Origin: Granulosicoccus sp.
Lineage (GTDB): Bacteria; Pseudomonadota; Gammaproteobacteria; Granulosicoccales; Granulosicoccaceae
Assembly: GCA_023301795.1 (NCBI GenBank)
Contig: JALZVU010000103.1
Coordinates: 1 to 56,171 of the forward strand
Direction of reading: 5' to 3'
DNA: 56,171 bases
Part shown: positions 3,076-10,883 of the stretch, one piece after another
How the letters are laid out: each line of letters starts with the position of its first letter
How positions within the stretch are numbered: the first letter of the stretch is position 1
Translations under genes and position numbers: made by a program
The notes under the pieces: model-generated
What the model was told of the DNA's origin: nothing
What the model saw: only the letters and a program-made list of their open reading frames with translations
The model's database searches: none

Positions 3076-5526
3076 TCAGTTGCGAAGTGCAACATTACCA
3101 GAATCATAAACGGATTCCGCCACGACTGTCGCTGGGCGCATGTTGCCCAGAATATTAATGAGTAGCGTTGAGCCTGTCACTGCCAGCTCAGGCTTCACAT
3201 AGCCAAGTGCAATGCTTTTTTCGGTGCGATGGCCGTAGCCGCCCGAAGTGGTATAGCCGACTACATCGCCATTGAGATGTATGGGACAGCCGTAGATGGC
3301 ATCTGTATTGGCAATGATGTCGTCCTGCGGCTGATCGTCGATGACCAAAGTGACAAACACGTCGATCAGTGGCTTGGATGCCTCTTCTATCAAAGCAGCC
3401 TTACCAATGAAATCAACGGGCTTTTCAAGGTCGACAAAACGCTCGAGGCCTGAACGCAAAGGTGAGTACTCATGGTCAAGGTCGACCTTCCACGCTCGGT
3501 AGCTTTTTTCAAGGCGCATGCTTTCCATGGCATACATGCCAAAATCTTTCATACCATATTGCGCACCCGCCTCCTGCAAAGCTTCATAGACACCCATGAG
3601 ATTGTCCATGGGGATATGCATTTCCCAGCCAAGCTCACCAACATAATTAACGCGTAAGGCACGTACTTCCACGCCAGCAACATCACAAGACTGGTAGGTG
3701 AGCCAGCGGAAGTTTTCATTGGCCAGATCTTTGTTCGTCAGCTTCTGCAGCACCTTGCGTGAGTTAGGGCCAGCAAGAACGAGGGTCCCATAGTCCATGG
3801 TGATGTCAGTGAGCTCGATGCTGTGCGGCGTTGCCGGCAAATGCTGTTCCAGCCACTGCATGTCGTGCCAGCGTGCGGCGGCTCCTGAGATCAGCATGAA
3901 GTGCTCTTCAGCGATGCGGGTGATGGTCAGCTCCGCCCAGACGCCACCATCAGCAAAGCAGCAGTAAGATAATGATAAGCGTCCAACGCGCGGCAGCTTG
4001 CCCGCAATAAGAGAATCGAGCCAAGCTGCACTGCCCTCGCCTTTGCATTCGTACTTGGTAAAACCGCACATATCCAGCAGGCCCACGTTGTCGCGTACAT
4101 TGCGGCATTCCTCACCCACAGCATCAAACCAGACGCCGCGTTGAAAGGTCGGCACATCTTCGGCGGTATCCTGCTCGCGTGGAAACCAGACGGCGCGTTC
4201 CCAACCGCCACGCGCACCAAACTTTGCACCTTTAGCCACCAAGTGATCGTAGGTTGGGGATACATGACGTGGACGGCCTGCCGGCTTTTCCTCGACCGGA
4301 AGATGTATCGCGTATTCATCCTGATAGACCTCAATTGCGCGATCCACGACATAAGGCTGATCGGCATAATCAGTATAGCGACGAGGGTCGAGTGACCACA
4401 GATCCATCGCTGGTTTGCCGTCGATAACCCATTCGGCAATGGCCTTGCCTGCTCCACCGCTTTGGCAGATGCCAAAACTGAAGCCATTCATGTGAAAAAA
4501 GTTTGGCATATTGTTGGCGGGGCCAACATACGGGAAGCCATCAGGAGTGTAAGGAATGGGCCCGTTGATAACGCGCTGCACACCCACAGTACCCAAAAGA
4601 GGCATGCGCTCGCAGGCCTTTTCTATGTACCACTCAAGCCGATCCAGATCATCAGCGTAGAGTTCGTAAGCAAATTTTTCAGGGATCTTGCCGTTCGTCC
4701 AGCGAGCTTTAGCGTCGGCTCGTTCGTACGGTCCGAGGATAAGGCCAGCTTTTTCCTGACGCAAATAATAGGAGTCGTCAGGGTCACGCACCATCGGCAT
4801 GAGCGTACCGGCTTCTTCAAGTTCCGGGATCGGTTCAGTGACAAGGTACTGATGCTCGAGGGTAACCATGGGAAGGAACTTGCCGCTCATCTCAGAAACT
4901 TCAGCGCCGCGGTAACCACCAGCGTTGATAACGTATTCGGCCAACACGTCACCTTTGTCGGTGGTGATTTTCCATTGGCCAGAGTGCGTGCGGCAGACGC
5001 TGGTTACTTTGGTAAAACGGTGAATAACGCCACCTTGTTTACGGGCGTGGTGAGCGAAGGCCTGAGTGAGCTGGCTGGGATCGATGTCGCCATCGTTCGG
5101 GTCCCAGAGACCGCCAAGAATGTCGTGAATTTCCAAGTGTGGAGCACGCTCTTTCACTTGCTCAGGCGTCAGCATTTCGTAGCCTAAGCCCAGCGTGTTG
5201 GCCATGGCGGTGACGTGATGGAATTCTTCCATGCGCTGTTGGGTGTGAGCCAGCCGGATAGCACCGGTCTGGTGATAATTAATAGGGTATTCAGGGTCTT
5301 TGCACAACTTCGCGTACAACTGGGTGCTGTAGTGCTGCAGCCGAATCATGTTGCGTGACCCGGAGAACGTGGGAATGTTGCCCGCGGCATGCCACGTGGA
5401 GCCAGATGTCAGCTCGTCCATTTCCAGCAGCATGCAGTCTGTCCAGCCGCGCTCGGTAAGGTGGTAAAGCGCACTACAGCCGGCGACACCGCCGCCTATG
5501 ATGACAACTTTGGCTTGTGATTCCAC
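3076..5526 (-). CDS. FAD-dependent dimethylglycine/sarcosine dehydrogenase-like protein (DAO + GcvT domains)
   Basis: Two-part flavoprotein of about 816 residues, the usual family length. The N-terminal D-amino-acid-oxidase fold opens with VVIIGGGVAGCSALYHL (FAD pyrophosphate) and has STWHAAGN, where the His (about residue 46) is the covalent FAD site in dimethylglycine dehydrogenase. The C-terminal half (about 430-810) is an aminomethyltransferase (GcvT-like) folate domain ending in a GYTTSGGYGH-type segment. The expected role is oxidative demethylation of an N-methylated glycine, passing formaldehyde to tetrahydrofolate. A GTG at 5526 gives the family N-terminus and has GGGAA upstream; upstream codons in frame look non-coding. 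The GlxA/AraC regulator just upstream resembles GbdR, a known activator of glycine betaine and dimethylglycine catabolism, supporting this assignment. Exact substrate is inferred. Confidence 0.85.
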   Translation of the reverse strand: MESQAKVVIIGGGVAGCSALYHLTERGWTDCMLLEMDELTSGSTWHAAGNIPTFSGSRNMIRLQHYSTQLYAKLCKDPEYPINYHQTGAIRLAHTQQRMEEFHHVTAMANTLGLGYEMLTPEQVKERAPHLEIHDILGGLWDPNDGDIDPSQLTQAFAHHARKQGGVIHRFTKVTSVCRTHSGQWKITTDKGDVLAEYVINAGGYRGAEVSEMSGKFLPMVTLEHQYLVTEPIPELEEAGTLMPMVRDPDDSYYLRQEKAGLILGPYERADAKARWTNGKIPEKFAYELYADDLDRLEWYIEKACERMPLLGTVGVQRVINGPIPYTPDGFPYVGPANNMPNFFHMNGFSFGICQSGGAGKAIAEWVIDGKPAMDLWSLDPRRYTDYADQPYVVDRAIEVYQDEYAIHLPVEEKPAGRPRHVSPTYDHLVAKGAKFGARGGWERAVWFPREQDTAEDVPTFQRGVWFDAVGEECRNVRDNVGLLDMCGFTKYECKGEGSAAWLDSLIAGKLPRVGRLSLSYCCFADGGVWAELTITRIAEEHFMLISGAAARWHDMQWLEQHLPATPHSIELTDITMDYGTLVLAGPNSRKVLQKLTNKDLANENFRWLTYQSCDVAGVEVRALRVNYVGELGWEMHIPMDNLMGVYEALQEAGAQYGMKDFGMYAMESMRLEKSYRAWKVDLDHEYSPLRSGLERFVDLEKPVDFIGKAALIEEASKPLIDVFVTLVIDDQPQDDIIANTDAIYGCPIHLNGDVVGYTTSGGYGHRTEKSIALGYVKPELAVTGSTLLINILGNMRPATVVAESVYDSGNVALRN

Positions 5527-5717
5527 AGTGGTTGATTCCCGAGTCAAATTGCTAGCGATATAGTGTTTGCGCACAATACGTGCGGCACGCTGGCAAGTAT
5601 CAACCGTGGCGGTCGCTCCGCTCCATACCGGTACGACATTCAGACAGAGCATAGCGACAGTAGCTCTGTTTAGCGGCAGCGTTACGTCTACGACATAACA
5701 TTTTTATTGCGTAGATT

Positions 5718-6731
5718 TTATGACGTAGAAATGCGCTTGCGGGCTTGCGTCGGAGAGATACCGAATTGCACTCTGAAACGTCTGGAGAAGTAGTCGGATG
5801 AGGAGAAACCCGAAGCTGATGCCACTTCCAGAACGCTCATTGTGGTTTGGCGCAGTAGCTCGTAGCCTGCCTTAAGGCGAAGTTGCTGATAGTACAGCGT
5901 GGGCGTGGTGTGCAAATACGTGCGGAACAGACGCTCCAGTTGGCGACTGGAGACGTCAATCATCTCAGCAAGTTCTGATGTTCCCAGAGGCTGCTCGACG
6001 TTTGTTTCCATCAGTTCGATACAGGTCACAAGACCGGGATGATAGATGCCAGAGCGTTCCACAATGCTGCGTCGCTGCGGGTCGGTAGCCAGCCGGTTGC
6101 CAGATGAGATAAACAGCTCTGCCAGTTGTAATGCCAGCAGTTTGCCGTGATCCTGTTTTATCAGCGCCAACATCATGTCCAGCGCAGCAGTACCACCAGC
6201 GCAAGTGAATAGATCGTCGTCAATTTCAAACAGCTCAGCGGTGACATTCACACCGGGAAACGCTTCACGCATCCCGGGCTGATTCTCCCAGTGAATGGTG
6301 CACCGTCGCTGCTTGATAAGGTCTGCATCGGCCAACAGGTGGCTGCCAGAATCCAGCGAGCCAATCTGGGTGCCTCGCTTGGCCCATTGGCGCAAAGCTC
6401 TGAGGGCTTTGGGATCATCAAATTGGTGAGGCTCGTGTGGGCCACAGACAATGAGACGGCTGAGCCTCCCTTGGGACATATCATTCAGGTTGCCATCCAG
6501 CTTGAAGGGCATGCCGTTGTTGGCGAACGCCTGGGCACTCCCTGTACCAAGCAGTTTCCAACTATAAAGAGGTTTGCCGCTTAGCCGGTTGGCAGCGCGC
6601 AAGGGCTCCAGAGCCGACACAAACGGCAGCATTGCAAAGGTGTCGGGCAAGTAGAACCCAATCTCACGTTCACCCGGCTGGGTCAACACGCCGTAACGGG
6701 CGAAGTCTATGTCACAGGTCTCAGCTACCAT
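5718..6731 (-). CDS. GlxA/GbdR-like AraC-family transcriptional regulator
   Basis: Architecture is an N-terminal class I glutamine amidotransferase-like (DJ-1/PfpI) domain, about residues 20-195, followed by an AraC double helix-turn-helix, about 225-330 (LGTSELAEMIDVSSRQLERLF and ASGFSSSDYFSRRFRVQFG). The N-terminal domain senses a ligand; the second binds DNA. GbdR and other members of this subgroup control quaternary-amine and methylglycine catabolism, which fits the dehydrogenase gene 190 bases downstream. However, the gene begins 9 bases after the acyl-AMP ligase stop on the same strand, so it is probably also transcribed with the P450 and ligase. Which pathway it controls cannot be settled from sequence. 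Confidence 0.87.
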   Translation of the reverse strand: MVAETCDIDFARYGVLTQPGEREIGFYLPDTFAMLPFVSALEPLRAANRLSGKPLYSWKLLGTGSAQAFANNGMPFKLDGNLNDMSQGRLSRLIVCGPHEPHQFDDPKALRALRQWAKRGTQIGSLDSGSHLLADADLIKQRRCTIHWENQPGMREAFPGVNVTAELFEIDDDLFTCAGGTAALDMMLALIKQDHGKLLALQLAELFISSGNRLATDPQRRSIVERSGIYHPGLVTCIELMETNVEQPLGTSELAEMIDVSSRQLERLFRTYLHTTPTLYYQQLRLKAGYELLRQTTMSVLEVASASGFSSSDYFSRRFRVQFGISPTQARKRISTS

Positions 6732-6740
6732 CAGTTGTGT

Positions 6741-8735
6741 TCATGACTTCTGATCCAGGAACTCGGCAAGTTCTGCCACCGTGGGATAATCGAACAGATC
6801 TGTGATGTCTACTTGCGATGGCCAAGTGTCCTCAATGGATGCATGAATTTCAGCCAGCGTTAACGAGCTTATTCCCAGTTCAAACAGGTTGTCACTCGCC
6901 ACTACGCTCATGCCTTCCACATGTGTGTTGCAGATGGCCAGCAATTGAGAGGCGGTTGTTTCTGCCTCTGCATCAGTTGCAGCAACCGAATCCGTAGCCA
7001 TCGGTGCTGCGGCATCGTCAACTTCTACGACAATGTGCGCTTGCGTGAGTGCTTTAAATTCGCCTTTTCCATAGTCACTCACCAACTGAAATCGCTGTAC
7101 TTTTCCGCTGGTGGTTTTGGGGATTCGGGGCACCGCGACTACTGCATCGACACGCACGCCTGCTTCAGTACCTAGCGTGCGAGTGATATCACGTGCCATG
7201 TCATCCAGCTCTGCAATGTCACCGCGGTGCAATACAAAAACGAGCAGTTTTTCTGTATCTGAACCAGGATCGGGATAGCTTGCCACAGCCAGCTTGCCCC
7301 GCTCGATCAACTGCCCTTGCACCAGAATTTCTTCCAGATCATGAGGGTAGATATTCTGGCCGTTAATAAAAATGATGTCTTTTGCGCGCCCGGTGATATA
7401 CAGCTGACCATCAAACAGAAAGCCCAGATCACCAGTATCAAGCCAACCCTCGCTGTCGATCAGCTGGGCATTAAGCTCAGGTTGTTTGTAGTATCCCGAT
7501 GTCACGTTTGCACCGCGAATACAGATTCGACCCGTTATCTGCTCAATGCAGGATGTGTTATCAGCGTTACGGATATCCAGCTCCACGTGTGAAAGAGGCT
7601 TACCAACAGCTACAAACTGGACGCCGTCTGAGCCGGTGCTGGCATCCGGAGACAACACTTGCACATGATCACCTATAGACAGGGAGGATCGCGATAGGGT
7701 CAGAGTTGTAAAACGTTTATCCAGCGAAGGAAAGGTGACACCCAGACTGGCCTCAGCCAGACCATAGACCGGCAACATGGCGTGACTATCCAGGCCGAAA
7801 GGTTGCAGTGTTTGCATGAACTCACTGCACAGCGATACTGAAATGGGTTCCGCTCCATTGAACAACAGCCGCACTGAAGAAAGATCAAGGCCTTCAAATT
7901 TCTCTGGCTTGAATGACTTCAATAGATGTTGATAACCGAAGTTGGGCGAGCACAGGAAAGTGGCGCGCATTCTGTGCGCTTCACTAAGCCAGATGCCGGG
8001 TCTGCGCACAAAGACATCTGTGGGAATTAGTGAGTGACTGGTATCGCACACTAACGGTGTGAGGTGAAAACCGATAAGACCCATGTCGTGCGTTAGCGGC
8101 ATCCAGCTGAGCAAATGATCGCTCGAACTCATCAGGGACCCGTCAATGATAGAACCGGTATTGGTGAGCAGATTGCGGTGGCTAAGCACAATGCCTTTTG
8201 GCGTGCTGGTGGAACCGGATGAAAATTGTATGAAGGCGGTGTCGTCGGGCGTAGGTGTGGCGACGACAGCGCTTTGGGTTGATGACTGATTATCGGTCAG
8301 ACAGCATCGAGCGGCTAATAACCTATATTCACTGGATAGATCATTTTCACGGGCAAAGCTCTCAATGCGTTGCAGGTTTTTTTCATCCGTAAATAGCGCG
8401 GCATTATCGAGTGTTTGTGCAATACGGAACAACTTCTGACGATGCTCCGCACTGCTACCGCCTGCCACAGGCACCGCTACAATTGCGCCGAGCAGACACG
8501 CCCAGAAACCTTCCAGAAAGGCCTGATTGTCGGCACTCTGGAGAATCATATGATGCCCAGGCGCAACGCCTGCCGCCTGAAATGCGGCAAGACGCTGATG
8601 CGCGTTCGCAAGCATCTGGGCAAAACTGACCTGTCGGTAGTTATCCAGACCCTCAATGAACGTGATGCTCTGCTCACTGTGCTGACGATCCTGCAGGACA
8701 TCCAGCAGGGTGTTGTATTGGCGATGGTCAGTCAT
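6741..8735 (-). CDS. fatty acyl-AMP ligase fused to an acyl carrier domain
   Basis: 664 residues. The adenylation domain has the ATP-loop motif FSSGSTSTPKGIVLSH (about 170-185), the LLSWMPLTHDMGLIG segment characteristic of fatty acyl-AMP ligases, and the hinge WLDTGDLGFL, with RIPKTTSGKVQRF containing the late catalytic Lys. A carrier-protein domain occupies about 590-664, with Ser624 in LFELGISSLT as the expected phosphopantetheine site. The enzyme should activate a fatty acid as acyl-AMP and load it on its own carrier domain rather than on CoA. Its start overlaps the stop of the P450 gene by 4 bases (ATGA), so the P450 may act on the carrier-bound acyl chain. No condensing or peptide-bond domain follows, which is unusual for such loading modules. 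Confidence 0.88.
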   Translation of the reverse strand: MTDHRQYNTLLDVLQDRQHSEQSITFIEGLDNYRQVSFAQMLANAHQRLAAFQAAGVAPGHHMILQSADNQAFLEGFWACLLGAIVAVPVAGGSSAEHRQKLFRIAQTLDNAALFTDEKNLQRIESFARENDLSSEYRLLAARCCLTDNQSSTQSAVVATPTPDDTAFIQFSSGSTSTPKGIVLSHRNLLTNTGSIIDGSLMSSSDHLLSWMPLTHDMGLIGFHLTPLVCDTSHSLIPTDVFVRRPGIWLSEAHRMRATFLCSPNFGYQHLLKSFKPEKFEGLDLSSVRLLFNGAEPISVSLCSEFMQTLQPFGLDSHAMLPVYGLAEASLGVTFPSLDKRFTTLTLSRSSLSIGDHVQVLSPDASTGSDGVQFVAVGKPLSHVELDIRNADNTSCIEQITGRICIRGANVTSGYYKQPELNAQLIDSEGWLDTGDLGFLFDGQLYITGRAKDIIFINGQNIYPHDLEEILVQGQLIERGKLAVASYPDPGSDTEKLLVFVLHRGDIAELDDMARDITRTLGTEAGVRVDAVVAVPRIPKTTSGKVQRFQLVSDYGKGEFKALTQAHIVVEVDDAAAPMATDSVAATDAEAETTASQLLAICNTHVEGMSVVASDNLFELGISSLTLAEIHASIEDTWPSQVDITDLFDYPTVAELAEFLDQKS

Positions 8736-10075
8736 GGTGTTCTGTTATGCGGCCTCATCATGATGCTGTGGCGCGAACGAAGGTTAATCAAAGGTTCAAT
8801 CTCTACAGGCTCTGTAGCAACATGCTCTAGCCGGATATAGCGGGTAAGCAACCCAAGGTGCAGCTGCATATCCACTAGCGAGAAGAACTCACCGATACAT
8901 CTGCGTGAACCGAGTGAGAACGGAAAGTACACATGTCGATTTCGTTCGCGAATGTTAGCGTCGTTGAATCTGTCAGGATCAAATGTGTCGGGGTTGGGCC
9001 AGTGCTGTGCGTTGCGGTGCAGAAAATAGGGACTGAGAAAAATGTCTGTTCCGGCAGGTACGTCTACATCGCTACCCTTTGAGCGTTTGAAAACATCGCT
9101 CTCAATCGCCTTACGAGAAAAGAGCCAGACAGGTGGGTAGAGACGCAGAGTTTCATCGATAACACGGTGAGTATGGCTCAGTGCACCAAGATCATCGAAT
9201 CCCGGATCAGCAGGCAATGCGTCAACCTCAACGTGCAGAGTCTGTTCGATCTGAGGATGCTGCGATAATAGGTACCACGCCCAGTTCAGTGTGCCAGCCG
9301 TGGTTTCATGACCTGCCACGATAATGGTCATCACCTCGTCAATGAGCGCTTTATCGGACATGGGCTGCAAGGTGTCTTTGTCACGGGTCTCCATCATCAG
9401 GGAGAGGAAATCGAGCTCTATCCGGTTTTGCTCACGGCGTTGTTGCATGATGCTGGCGACATGCTTTGTGAGAGCGCGAAAACGCATCGCAAGCTTCAGA
9501 TCACGTGTGACATCGTCTACCAGCATGGTGAAAGGGTTCTCGCCCTGCTCTGCAATCAACCGGTCAAGATCCTCACTGAATAAAGCCCTCAGGATGACCT
9601 CTAGCGCTAAGGCACTCATTTCCTGAGTGAGATCGATGACGGTACCGTCGGTTGCTTTTTGCTGCCATTGTTCGAGTTTTTGCTCGTTGCAGCGCTGCAT
9701 CATGAGCGCAAGCTGGGCAATGATTTTTTTGTGGAACACCGGCTGAATCATGCGTCGCTGAGAACGCCAGAAATCACCATCACTAACGATGATGCCGTTG
9801 CCCAACAACATGGCAACCCGCTCGAAACCCACACCTTTAGCGTAGTTTTTGTGATTACTGACCAGCACCTGCTTTACATGCTCGGGATGGTTCAACAGCA
9901 GCGCAGGCTTTCGGCGTTTATGGGGCGTAATAGCGATGATATCGCCATACGCTTGCAGCCAAGGTCCAAGCTTGCCGAATGTTGTGTCATCGACATTGAT
10001 GTCGAAAGGCTCATCGGGCCCGGGTGCATTGATGCGGGCAAGCTCTGGCGAGGGTGAAGCTGAAGGTCCGGACAT
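8732..10075 (-). CDS. cytochrome P450
   Basis: 447 residues from the ATG at 10075. Diagnostic features are the I-helix oxygen-activation motif AGHETT (254-259), an ExxR motif in DETLRLYPP (about 310), and the haem loop FPFSLGSRRCIGEFF with ligand Cys393. There is no membrane anchor and no fused reductase, so separate redox partners are needed; none lie nearby. The sequence is of the class that includes fatty-acid hydroxylases and self-standing relatives of CYP102 haem domains, but I cannot name the substrate. It overlaps the acyl-AMP ligase start by 4 bases, implying translational coupling and a shared pathway. A start upstream of 10075 would add residues without family character and invade the divergent acyltransferase leader. 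Confidence 0.93.
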   Translation of the reverse strand: MSGPSASPSPELARINAPGPDEPFDINVDDTTFGKLGPWLQAYGDIIAITPHKRRKPALLLNHPEHVKQVLVSNHKNYAKGVGFERVAMLLGNGIIVSDGDFWRSQRRMIQPVFHKKIIAQLALMMQRCNEQKLEQWQQKATDGTVIDLTQEMSALALEVILRALFSEDLDRLIAEQGENPFTMLVDDVTRDLKLAMRFRALTKHVASIMQQRREQNRIELDFLSLMMETRDKDTLQPMSDKALIDEVMTIIVAGHETTAGTLNWAWYLLSQHPQIEQTLHVEVDALPADPGFDDLGALSHTHRVIDETLRLYPPVWLFSRKAIESDVFKRSKGSDVDVPAGTDIFLSPYFLHRNAQHWPNPDTFDPDRFNDANIRERNRHVYFPFSLGSRRCIGEFFSLVDMQLHLGLLTRYIRLEHVATEPVEIEPLINLRSRHSIMMRPHNRTP

Positions 10076-10187
10076 TGTTAGCGTAGCAATCCAGCAGTTA
10101 AGGCTGCGTTTTGGTGCGTTTGAGCACCAGCCGCACGACACTCAGTATATCATTGCGCTCAACGTTGAACCTCTCGGTACCCACAAC

Positions 10188-10883
10188 TTGACTTTCAAAC
10201 AACGGCGACGCCAGATCGCAAGCAAACTATTGCCTCCACTGGTGTGGGGGTTGATCCAGCTGATCTGGAAAACGTGCAAAGTGCAGCATGTCATTGGTGA
10301 GGAGCACCTGCAAAGCCTGCTCGAATCAAGGGAGCCGTTTATTCCGTGTTACTGGCATCAGCAACAGATTTTTGGCGTTCGTTATTTGCTCGAAACCGCT
10401 GCACGCCATCCTGAACTGAACCTGGGCTACCTGATCAGTCCATCCGCTGACGGCGATATTGCCTCCAAGATGCTGTCCAGAGACAGTGTCCATATTATCC
10501 GCGGATCGGCCACTCGAGGTGGTGCTCAAGCGCTCCGTGAAATATACACGGCAATTCGAAAAGAGAAAATCTCACCGATCGTGACCCCTGACGGACCTAC
10601 TGGCCCCATCTATCAATGCAAGCCAGGTGTGCCCATGCTCGCCCAATTAAGCCGAGCGCCCCTCCTGCCGCTGTCCTATGCCAGTACCCGTGTCTGGAAA
10701 TTACGCTCCTGGGATGCATTCATGATACCTGTCCCGTTTTCACGTATTGTTATTGGCATTGGTGAGCCGCTAGTGGTGGACAAAGCCATGGCAGAGGACA
10801 ATTTTTCAGACGCTTGCGGGCAGATGAATGACAGGCTTAATGGGCTGTCGTCGCTGTGCGAGCAAGCGGCCAAAGGTGTCTAG
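10188..10883 (+). CDS. lysophospholipid acyltransferase-like protein (DUF374 family)
   Basis: The reading frame matches the DUF374 branch of the LPLAT acyltransferases: a basic N-terminus and a hydrophobic segment (LLPPLVWGLIQLIWK), then FIPCYWHQQQIFGVRYL with the catalytic-type His, the loop RGSATRGGAQALREI, and VTPDGPTGPIYQCKPGV. Family members often lie in lipid A or membrane-lipid modification loci. The start is uncertain: no ATG lies in the right place, and the TTG at 10188 gives about 231 residues, the usual length, but has no strong ribosome site; initiation at a rare codon as far up as 10074 cannot be excluded. It is divergent from the P450/acyl-AMP ligase unit, suggesting a joint role in lipid modification (inference). 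Confidence 0.75.
   Translation: MTFKQRRRQIASKLLPPLVWGLIQLIWKTCKVQHVIGEEHLQSLLESREPFIPCYWHQQQIFGVRYLLETAARHPELNLGYLISPSADGDIASKMLSRDSVHIIRGSATRGGAQALREIYTAIRKEKISPIVTPDGPTGPIYQCKPGVPMLAQLSRAPLLPLSYASTRVWKLRSWDAFMIPVPFSRIVIGIGEPLVVDKAMAEDNFSDACGQMNDRLNGLSSLCEQAAKGV

Follow-up and report, generated by a model that had tools for sequence, protein, structure and literature searches.

Late acylation determines the outer-membrane permeability and the immune recognition of bacteria, and the routes to it that we know of draw plain acyl chains from the housekeeping acyl carrier protein (ACP), with hydroxylation, where present, being added afterwards (LpxO). Proteins that fuse a fatty acyl-AMP ligase (FAAL) to a carrier commonly initiate lipopeptide or polyketide pathways, and the cytochrome P450 BioI cleaves a carrier-bound fatty acid for biotin synthesis, to our knowledge with neither a FAAL nor a lipid acyltransferase as partner. 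Here, we describe a three-gene module of Granulosicoccus sp. in which a P450 and a ligase-carrier fusion (FAAL-ACP) stand divergently from a DUF374 acyltransferase. The window, that is, the whole stretch of DNA that was analysed, comprises 56,171 nucleotides (GenBank assembly GCA_023301795.1, contig JALZVU010000103.1, positions 1 to 56,171 of the forward strand). We propose, with a probability of about one half, that the self-loading carrier and the P450 feed oxidised chains to an acyltransferase of the LpxJ type, with lipid A as the most likely acceptor; that the module is an oxidised acyl donor for membrane lipids of some kind is highly probable.

Among the described systems that come closest to this arrangement are LpxJ and certain sphingolipid clusters. 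DUF374 has been described as LpxJ, a late lipid A acyltransferase in Rickettsia, Helicobacter, and Campylobacter, and as a non-orthologous replacement of LpxM (PMC6148475). According to the same article, Rickettsia LpxJ complements E. coli lpxM mutants, puts C14-C16 secondary chains on lipid A, lacks the HX4D motif, and has six essential residues (W60, H61, D86, D132, W172, and D173). Further, sphingolipid clusters have been described that combine serine palmitoyltransferase (SPT), a carrier, and an acyl-ACP synthetase (PMC9386255). The module of the window is laid out as follows:

10188..10883, plus strand: DUF374 (LpxJ-family) acyltransferase, from PF04028, a 42-sequence alignment, an AlphaFold2 model, and its predicted fold
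10076..10187, no strand: divergent intergenic region of 112 bases between P450-FAAL and DUF374, read directly
8732..10075, minus strand: cytochrome P450 (PF00067, 242.8 bits), with its start placed by homologues
6741..8735, minus strand: FAAL-ACP, a fatty acyl-AMP ligase fused to an acyl carrier domain, from Pfam, alignment, and solved relatives

The first-pass annotation of this stretch had grouped the P450, the ligase-carrier fusion, a GlxA-type regulator, and a divergent DUF374 protein, and Pfam matches bear out the presence of all four genes. The four-base overlap that it had noted between the P450 stop and the ligase start (ATGA, 8732-8735) and the nine bases between the ligase and the regulator can both be read directly from the DNA. 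The divergent orientation of the acyltransferase likewise stands, but the listed starts of the open reading frames do not: at 10141 for the P450 and 9936 for DUF374, the two frames would overlap, and homologues support starts at about 10075 and about 10188 (TTG), respectively. Because both starts shift, the overlap vanishes and the two genes diverge over the 112 bases. The core module is thus DUF374, the divergent P450, and the FAAL-ACP that follows the latter, to the exclusion of the regulator, to which we return below.

The DUF374 protein matches PF04028 at 62.3 bits (cut-off, 26.8) and carries, by motif and spacing, counterparts of all six essential LpxJ residues (W56, H57, D88, D135, W175, and D176). 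Five of these are invariant among 42 aligned DUF374 sequences, and D88 is retained in at least 90%. The window protein also lacks HX4D, reading H57-QQQI-F in its place. Its AlphaFold2 model (pLDDT, 92.5) is predicted to have the expected LPLAT-type fold, with matches to PlsC (Z, 14.1; root-mean-square deviation [rmsd], 3.9; 187 aligned), PatA (Z, 13.8; rmsd, 4.0; 178 aligned), and Acinetobacter LpxM (Z, 12.2; rmsd, 3.4; 170 aligned); 14 rows score Z of at least 11.3 before a drop to 7.5. The lipid acyltransferase named by the first-pass annotation can, hence, be narrowed to the LpxJ family by the residue counterparts and the alignment.

The ligase-carrier protein (PF00501, 172.5 bits; PF00550, 42.1 bits, for the C-terminal carrier) retains a carrier attachment serine at about S624 in all 11 aligned sequences, and this residue aligns with the carrier serine of McyG. 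Against solved structures, FAAL-type proteins rank on top (108-270 bits), part of them named FAALs and the rest presumably FAALs as well, and the first coenzyme A (CoA) ligase follows at 104.8 bits. The closest solved relatives comprise FAALs, the McyG ligase-carrier protein, and an adenylation-domain protein. The NCBIfam fatty acyl-AMP ligase model is the top match at 354 bits, under its curated cut-off of 600. Where a FAAL-specific insertion was sought, the alignment with McyG is interrupted at residues 337-373, and that with 6ulw runs unbroken. By its scores against the solved structures and the NCBIfam model, the ligase is nearer to FAALs than to acyl-CoA ligases. The P450, in turn, has its motifs intact, namely EXXR (E308 and R311), the helix I motif AGHETT, and FSLGSRRCIG including C393. 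The haem cysteine C393, the EXXR pair, and the helix I acid-threonine pair (E257 and T258) are invariant across 10 aligned sequences. Its best solved relatives are plant carotenoid hydroxylases, followed by CYP4B1, none of them close.

Taken together, these features suggest a route in three steps. First, the FAAL would activate a free fatty acid as acyl-AMP and load its own C-terminal carrier, as its family and domain order indicate. Second, the P450 would oxidise the chain, either once it is carrier-bound or immediately ahead of loading. Third, the divergent LpxJ-family acyltransferase, as its family, its active-site residues, and the conserved linkage suggest, would pass the oxidised product on from the carrier to a lipid. 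The likeliest acceptor would be lipid A, at the late-acylation step performed elsewhere by LpxM, because LpxM is absent from the genus wherever the trio is present and because LpxL-family enzymes take the place of DUF374 in other lineages.

The trio behaves as a unit within the genus. In a survey of 27 Granulosicoccus genomes, several of them incomplete (E up to 1e-60 for the P450, 1e-60 for the FAAL, and 1e-10 for DUF374), all three genes were present in 14 and all three absent from 13, and every one of the 13 trio genomes other than that of the window keeps the order of DUF374 divergent from P450 and FAAL. A search of nine genomes from other Granulosicoccaceae genera yielded no match to any of the three. 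In the trio-less genome G017, the transporter-like neighbour (NMT1) has its orthologue in a different gene setting, and no empty site was seen.

Beyond the genus, a scan by P450 alignment of named bacterial genomes kept the best 80 of 371 relatives, so the counts lean to near relatives. A FAAL lies directly 3' of the P450 in 73 of these 80 loci, a count of ligases whose carrier domain was not checked FAAL by FAAL; of the seven loci without one, one is interrupted by a contig end. DUF374 is nearby (no more than 3.5 kb before or 5.5 kb after) in 47 of the 73, 12 of them from Granulosicoccaceae and 35 from elsewhere, and is divergent in 43 of the 47. A phosphopantetheinyl transferase accompanies 18 of the 47, none of these in Granulosicoccaceae, which fits the module, because the carrier must be activated. 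The gene order on which the first-pass annotation had built its P450, self-loading fatty acyl carrier, and DUF374 lipid acyltransferase is therefore conserved beyond the genus, and the scattered occurrence that would have spoken against it was not seen.

Where DUF374 is lacking, other lipid enzymes tend to adjoin the pair. In 13 of the 73 loci, the acyltransferase position after the FAAL is occupied by a gene of the LpxL/LpxM family (PF03279), a protein family other than DUF374, with no DUF374 match nearby; an LpxL-family gene also stands after the FAAL in 3 of the 47 DUF374 loci. Seven of the 73 lie in SPT clusters, six of them detected and the seventh (L100) labelled by hand, its contig stopping ahead of the SPT gene. 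The loci of this kind contain a second FAAL, a carrier, and SPT. Four loci have neither DUF374 nor LpxL nor SPT, two of which (L114 and L115) end soon after the FAAL, such that an LpxL gene could be missed, and the remaining two of the 73 are cut. A family check upheld the LpxL type in four of four examples (L068, L075, L101, and L120) and SPT in one (582 bits; cut-off, 500); it also covered two phosphopantetheinyl transferases. In the P450 tree, the SPT context forms one clade, and the LpxL label cannot be mapped with fewer than four changes on branches with good support, which means that the partner has been exchanged more than once. Because the partner switches between unrelated lipid-building enzymes, the cassette is best read as a lipid acyl donor, and P450-FAAL resembles a portable donor unit serving different lipid enzymes in different lineages.

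Two further loci are worth mentioning for their gene content. What appears to be a sphingolipid cluster is found on pDCB2, a conjugative IncP plasmid of Diaphorobacter sp. JS3051; it comprises SPT, two FAALs, a P450, a phosphopantetheinyl transferase, and CDP-alcohol phosphatidyltransferases, and a Tn3 transposase lies close by. A Variovorax contig (L079) has genes that are 87-98% identical. In a genome of another family (L037:12585-15464), the neighbours of the P450-FAAL pair are not DUF374 but a GT2-like open reading frame and a PMT_2 glycosyltransferase; in L106, which is the named record of this contig, the FAAL is followed by an LpxL-type gene.

The distribution of LpxM provides the link to lipid A. 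In a tree of the LpxL-family genes of the genus, which fall into clades, the one containing E. coli LpxM (support, 99/97) has genus members from trio-less genomes only, namely 11 of 13, as compared with 0 of the 14 trio genomes (the LpxM of G011 is a fragment, counted by identity and omitted from the tree). The two trio-less genomes without an LpxM-clade gene are 87% and 81% complete. For an enzyme that has been presented as a non-orthologous substitute for LpxM (PMC6148475), the absence of LpxM alongside the trio is the expected pattern. Outside Granulosicoccaceae, 31 of the 35 DUF374 loci were included (all but L065, L090, L104, and L122), and a position in the tree was obtained for the canonical copies of 24 of the 31 genomes, in no case within the LpxM clade. 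In the other seven (G072, G074, G075, G079, G080, G081, and G083), canonical copies were missing, partial, or remote, and this wider LpxL/LpxM tree was built without four rows that were remote or on long branches (G070_2, G086_2, G089_B, and G090_B). We considered, and set aside, LpxM replacement outside the genus as independent support: genomes with the LpxL or SPT context likewise have no placed copy in the LpxM clade, so the comparison there does not discriminate.

That last result is one of several that weigh against an LpxJ-type enzyme acting on lipid A. Within the genus, a single clade of trio genomes is not rejected by an rpoB tree (AU p, 0.372; 15 genomes, rpoB having been found in 15 of 27), and there are only one or two independent pairs, where a sign test would need at least six to reach 0.05, such that one replacement event could explain the mutual exclusion. 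The six LpxJ counterparts were assigned with no Rickettsia sequence aligned, and the substrate of the P450 cannot be read from sequence when its solved relatives are so remote. Further, the adjacency of DUF374 to, or its fusion in frame with, an aryl-polyene dehydratase in 2 of the 14 trio genomes (G003 and G018) hints at another acceptor. We infer both the biochemistry and the acceptor. Finally, the terms "P450", "acyl carrier", and "ACP" are absent from the main text of the LpxJ article (PMC6148475), which suggests that LpxJ as such needs no such partners.

One alternative retains the same donor cassette but has DUF374 work as a general lysolipid acyltransferase, which would place the chain on another membrane lipid, be it an aminolipid, a glycolipid, or a phospholipid. 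The broad LPLAT fold, shared with PlsC, GPAT, and PatA, would accommodate such an acceptor, and lipid A is not the sole context of the donor, because the same P450-FAAL pair also sits in sphingolipid clusters of Burkholderiales. Nevertheless, we regard this as rather unlikely, given that lipid A is the substrate of those DUF374 enzymes for which PMC6148475 provides a characterisation, that the substitute in other lineages comes from a lipid A acyltransferase family, and that LpxM is missing from the genus wherever the trio is present. A second alternative dispenses with a membrane lipid altogether. The P450 and FAAL could make a small diffusible signal, either an oxidised fatty acid or an acyl conjugate, with DUF374 being a neighbour by inheritance, as the common role of FAAL-carriers at the start of lipopeptide and polyketide pathways and the kinship with McyG and an adenylation-domain protein would allow. 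This appears improbable, since the three genes are all-or-none within the genus, and DUF374 adjoins the pair in 47 of 73 loci, with another lipid acyltransferase or SPT in 20 of the remaining 26.

The weakest alternative, that the trio serves aryl-polyene (APE) pigment lipid synthesis, the FAAL and P450 preparing or tailoring a chain that DUF374 joins to the pigment lipid, is very improbable, since the trio does abut an APE-type cluster in G003 and G018 (with DUF374 and an ApeI-like protein in a single frame in the latter) and such a cluster exists elsewhere in the genome of the window, but no more than 4 of the 14 trio genomes (G000, G003, G018, and G024) yielded an ApeI-like match and DUF374 is missing from the cluster in the genome of the window. 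That cluster, on another contig (C274, 30001-43579; L042), includes a ketosynthase, an ApeI-like protein, GT2, and LpxL-like and MMPL-like proteins; we rejected it as a partner of the module, as it is unlinked and lacks DUF374, the sole match to that family in the genome lying in the window. It also qualifies the earlier remark that no polyketide or peptide synthase is present, which agrees with the nine neighbouring proteins scanned, whereas the genome bears this aryl-polyene-type cluster on another contig. Separately, at L036:12427-13689, DUF374 and an ApeI-like dehydratase share one 420-amino-acid frame, beside P450-FAAL and an aryl-polyene-type cluster.

The regulator adjoining the FAAL-ACP, which the first-pass annotation had counted in the unit, was rejected as a fourth member; the oxidoreductase beyond it, its likelier partner, lies outside the module as well:

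5718..6731, minus strand: GlxA/GbdR-like AraC regulator (PF12833, PF01965), adjoining the module and outside it
3076..5652, minus strand: dimethylglycine/sarcosine-dehydrogenase-like oxidoreductase that binds flavin adenine dinucleotide (FAD) (PF01266 plus PF01571), outside the module

Of 13 same-genus relatives, 8 have a GlxA match in the vicinity of the FAAL (five within about 100 bases and three at about 840-1010). Outside Granulosicoccaceae, no match was found at any of 68 loci, although 11 of these span less than 8 kb. Within the genus, the regulator instead tracks the dehydrogenase-like gene, which accompanies it in seven of the eight relatives having it, the eighth being at a contig edge; one relative (L034) has the dehydrogenase-like gene without the regulator. 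The regulator scores 302.7 bits against the GbdR NCBIfam equivalog model, below the cut-off of 480. Given this companionship and the lack of a match outside the family, the regulator more likely controls methylamine-type catabolism than the module. Elsewhere in the window, positions 674-1912 encode a glucose/sorbosone dehydrogenase-like protein with a repeated "SAE" run just past a signal-like N-terminus.

Returning to the donor module and its proposed delivery to lipid A, the parts are known, and what would be new is that late acylation of a lipid draws on an oxidising donor of its own; among the open-licence publications listed by our searches, no title or abstract start links P450, FAAL, and lipid A or DUF374. 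If the proposal is right, oxidised chains would be made first, on a carrier equipped with a P450 for this purpose, and a specialised enzyme would then install them. It would also extend LpxJ from a simple replacement of LpxM to an enzyme with its own donor pathway, and it offers a testable role for a gene set shared by many bacteria of the environment, uncultured Gamma- and Betaproteobacteria among them. More tentatively, the P450-FAAL-carrier unit may oxidise chains before their incorporation into outer-membrane lipids and may have been wired separately to LpxJ-type enzymes, LpxL-type enzymes, and sphingolipid synthesis, with LpxJ having displaced LpxM in the genus; it would then constitute a P450-based route to modified lipopolysaccharide acyl chains.

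Compared with known systems, the module would resemble BioI in the action of a P450 on a carrier-bound fatty acid, familiar for BioI and proposed here for the window. Its ligase-carrier domain order is that of McyG-type FAAL-carrier loading units; unlike those units, it is followed by no polyketide or peptide synthase and is partnered by a P450 and a lipid acyltransferase. With sphingolipid clusters, it would share a dedicated ligase and carrier that feed a membrane-lipid enzyme, the term P450 being absent from the main text of PMC9386255; unlike them, it has no SPT among the nine window proteins scanned around the trio. With LpxJ, it shares the Pfam family, the six residue counterparts, the lack of HX4D, and a host genome without an LpxM-clade gene, and it differs from the described enzymes in that its DUF374 acyltransferase is linked to a dedicated FAAL-carrier and a P450.

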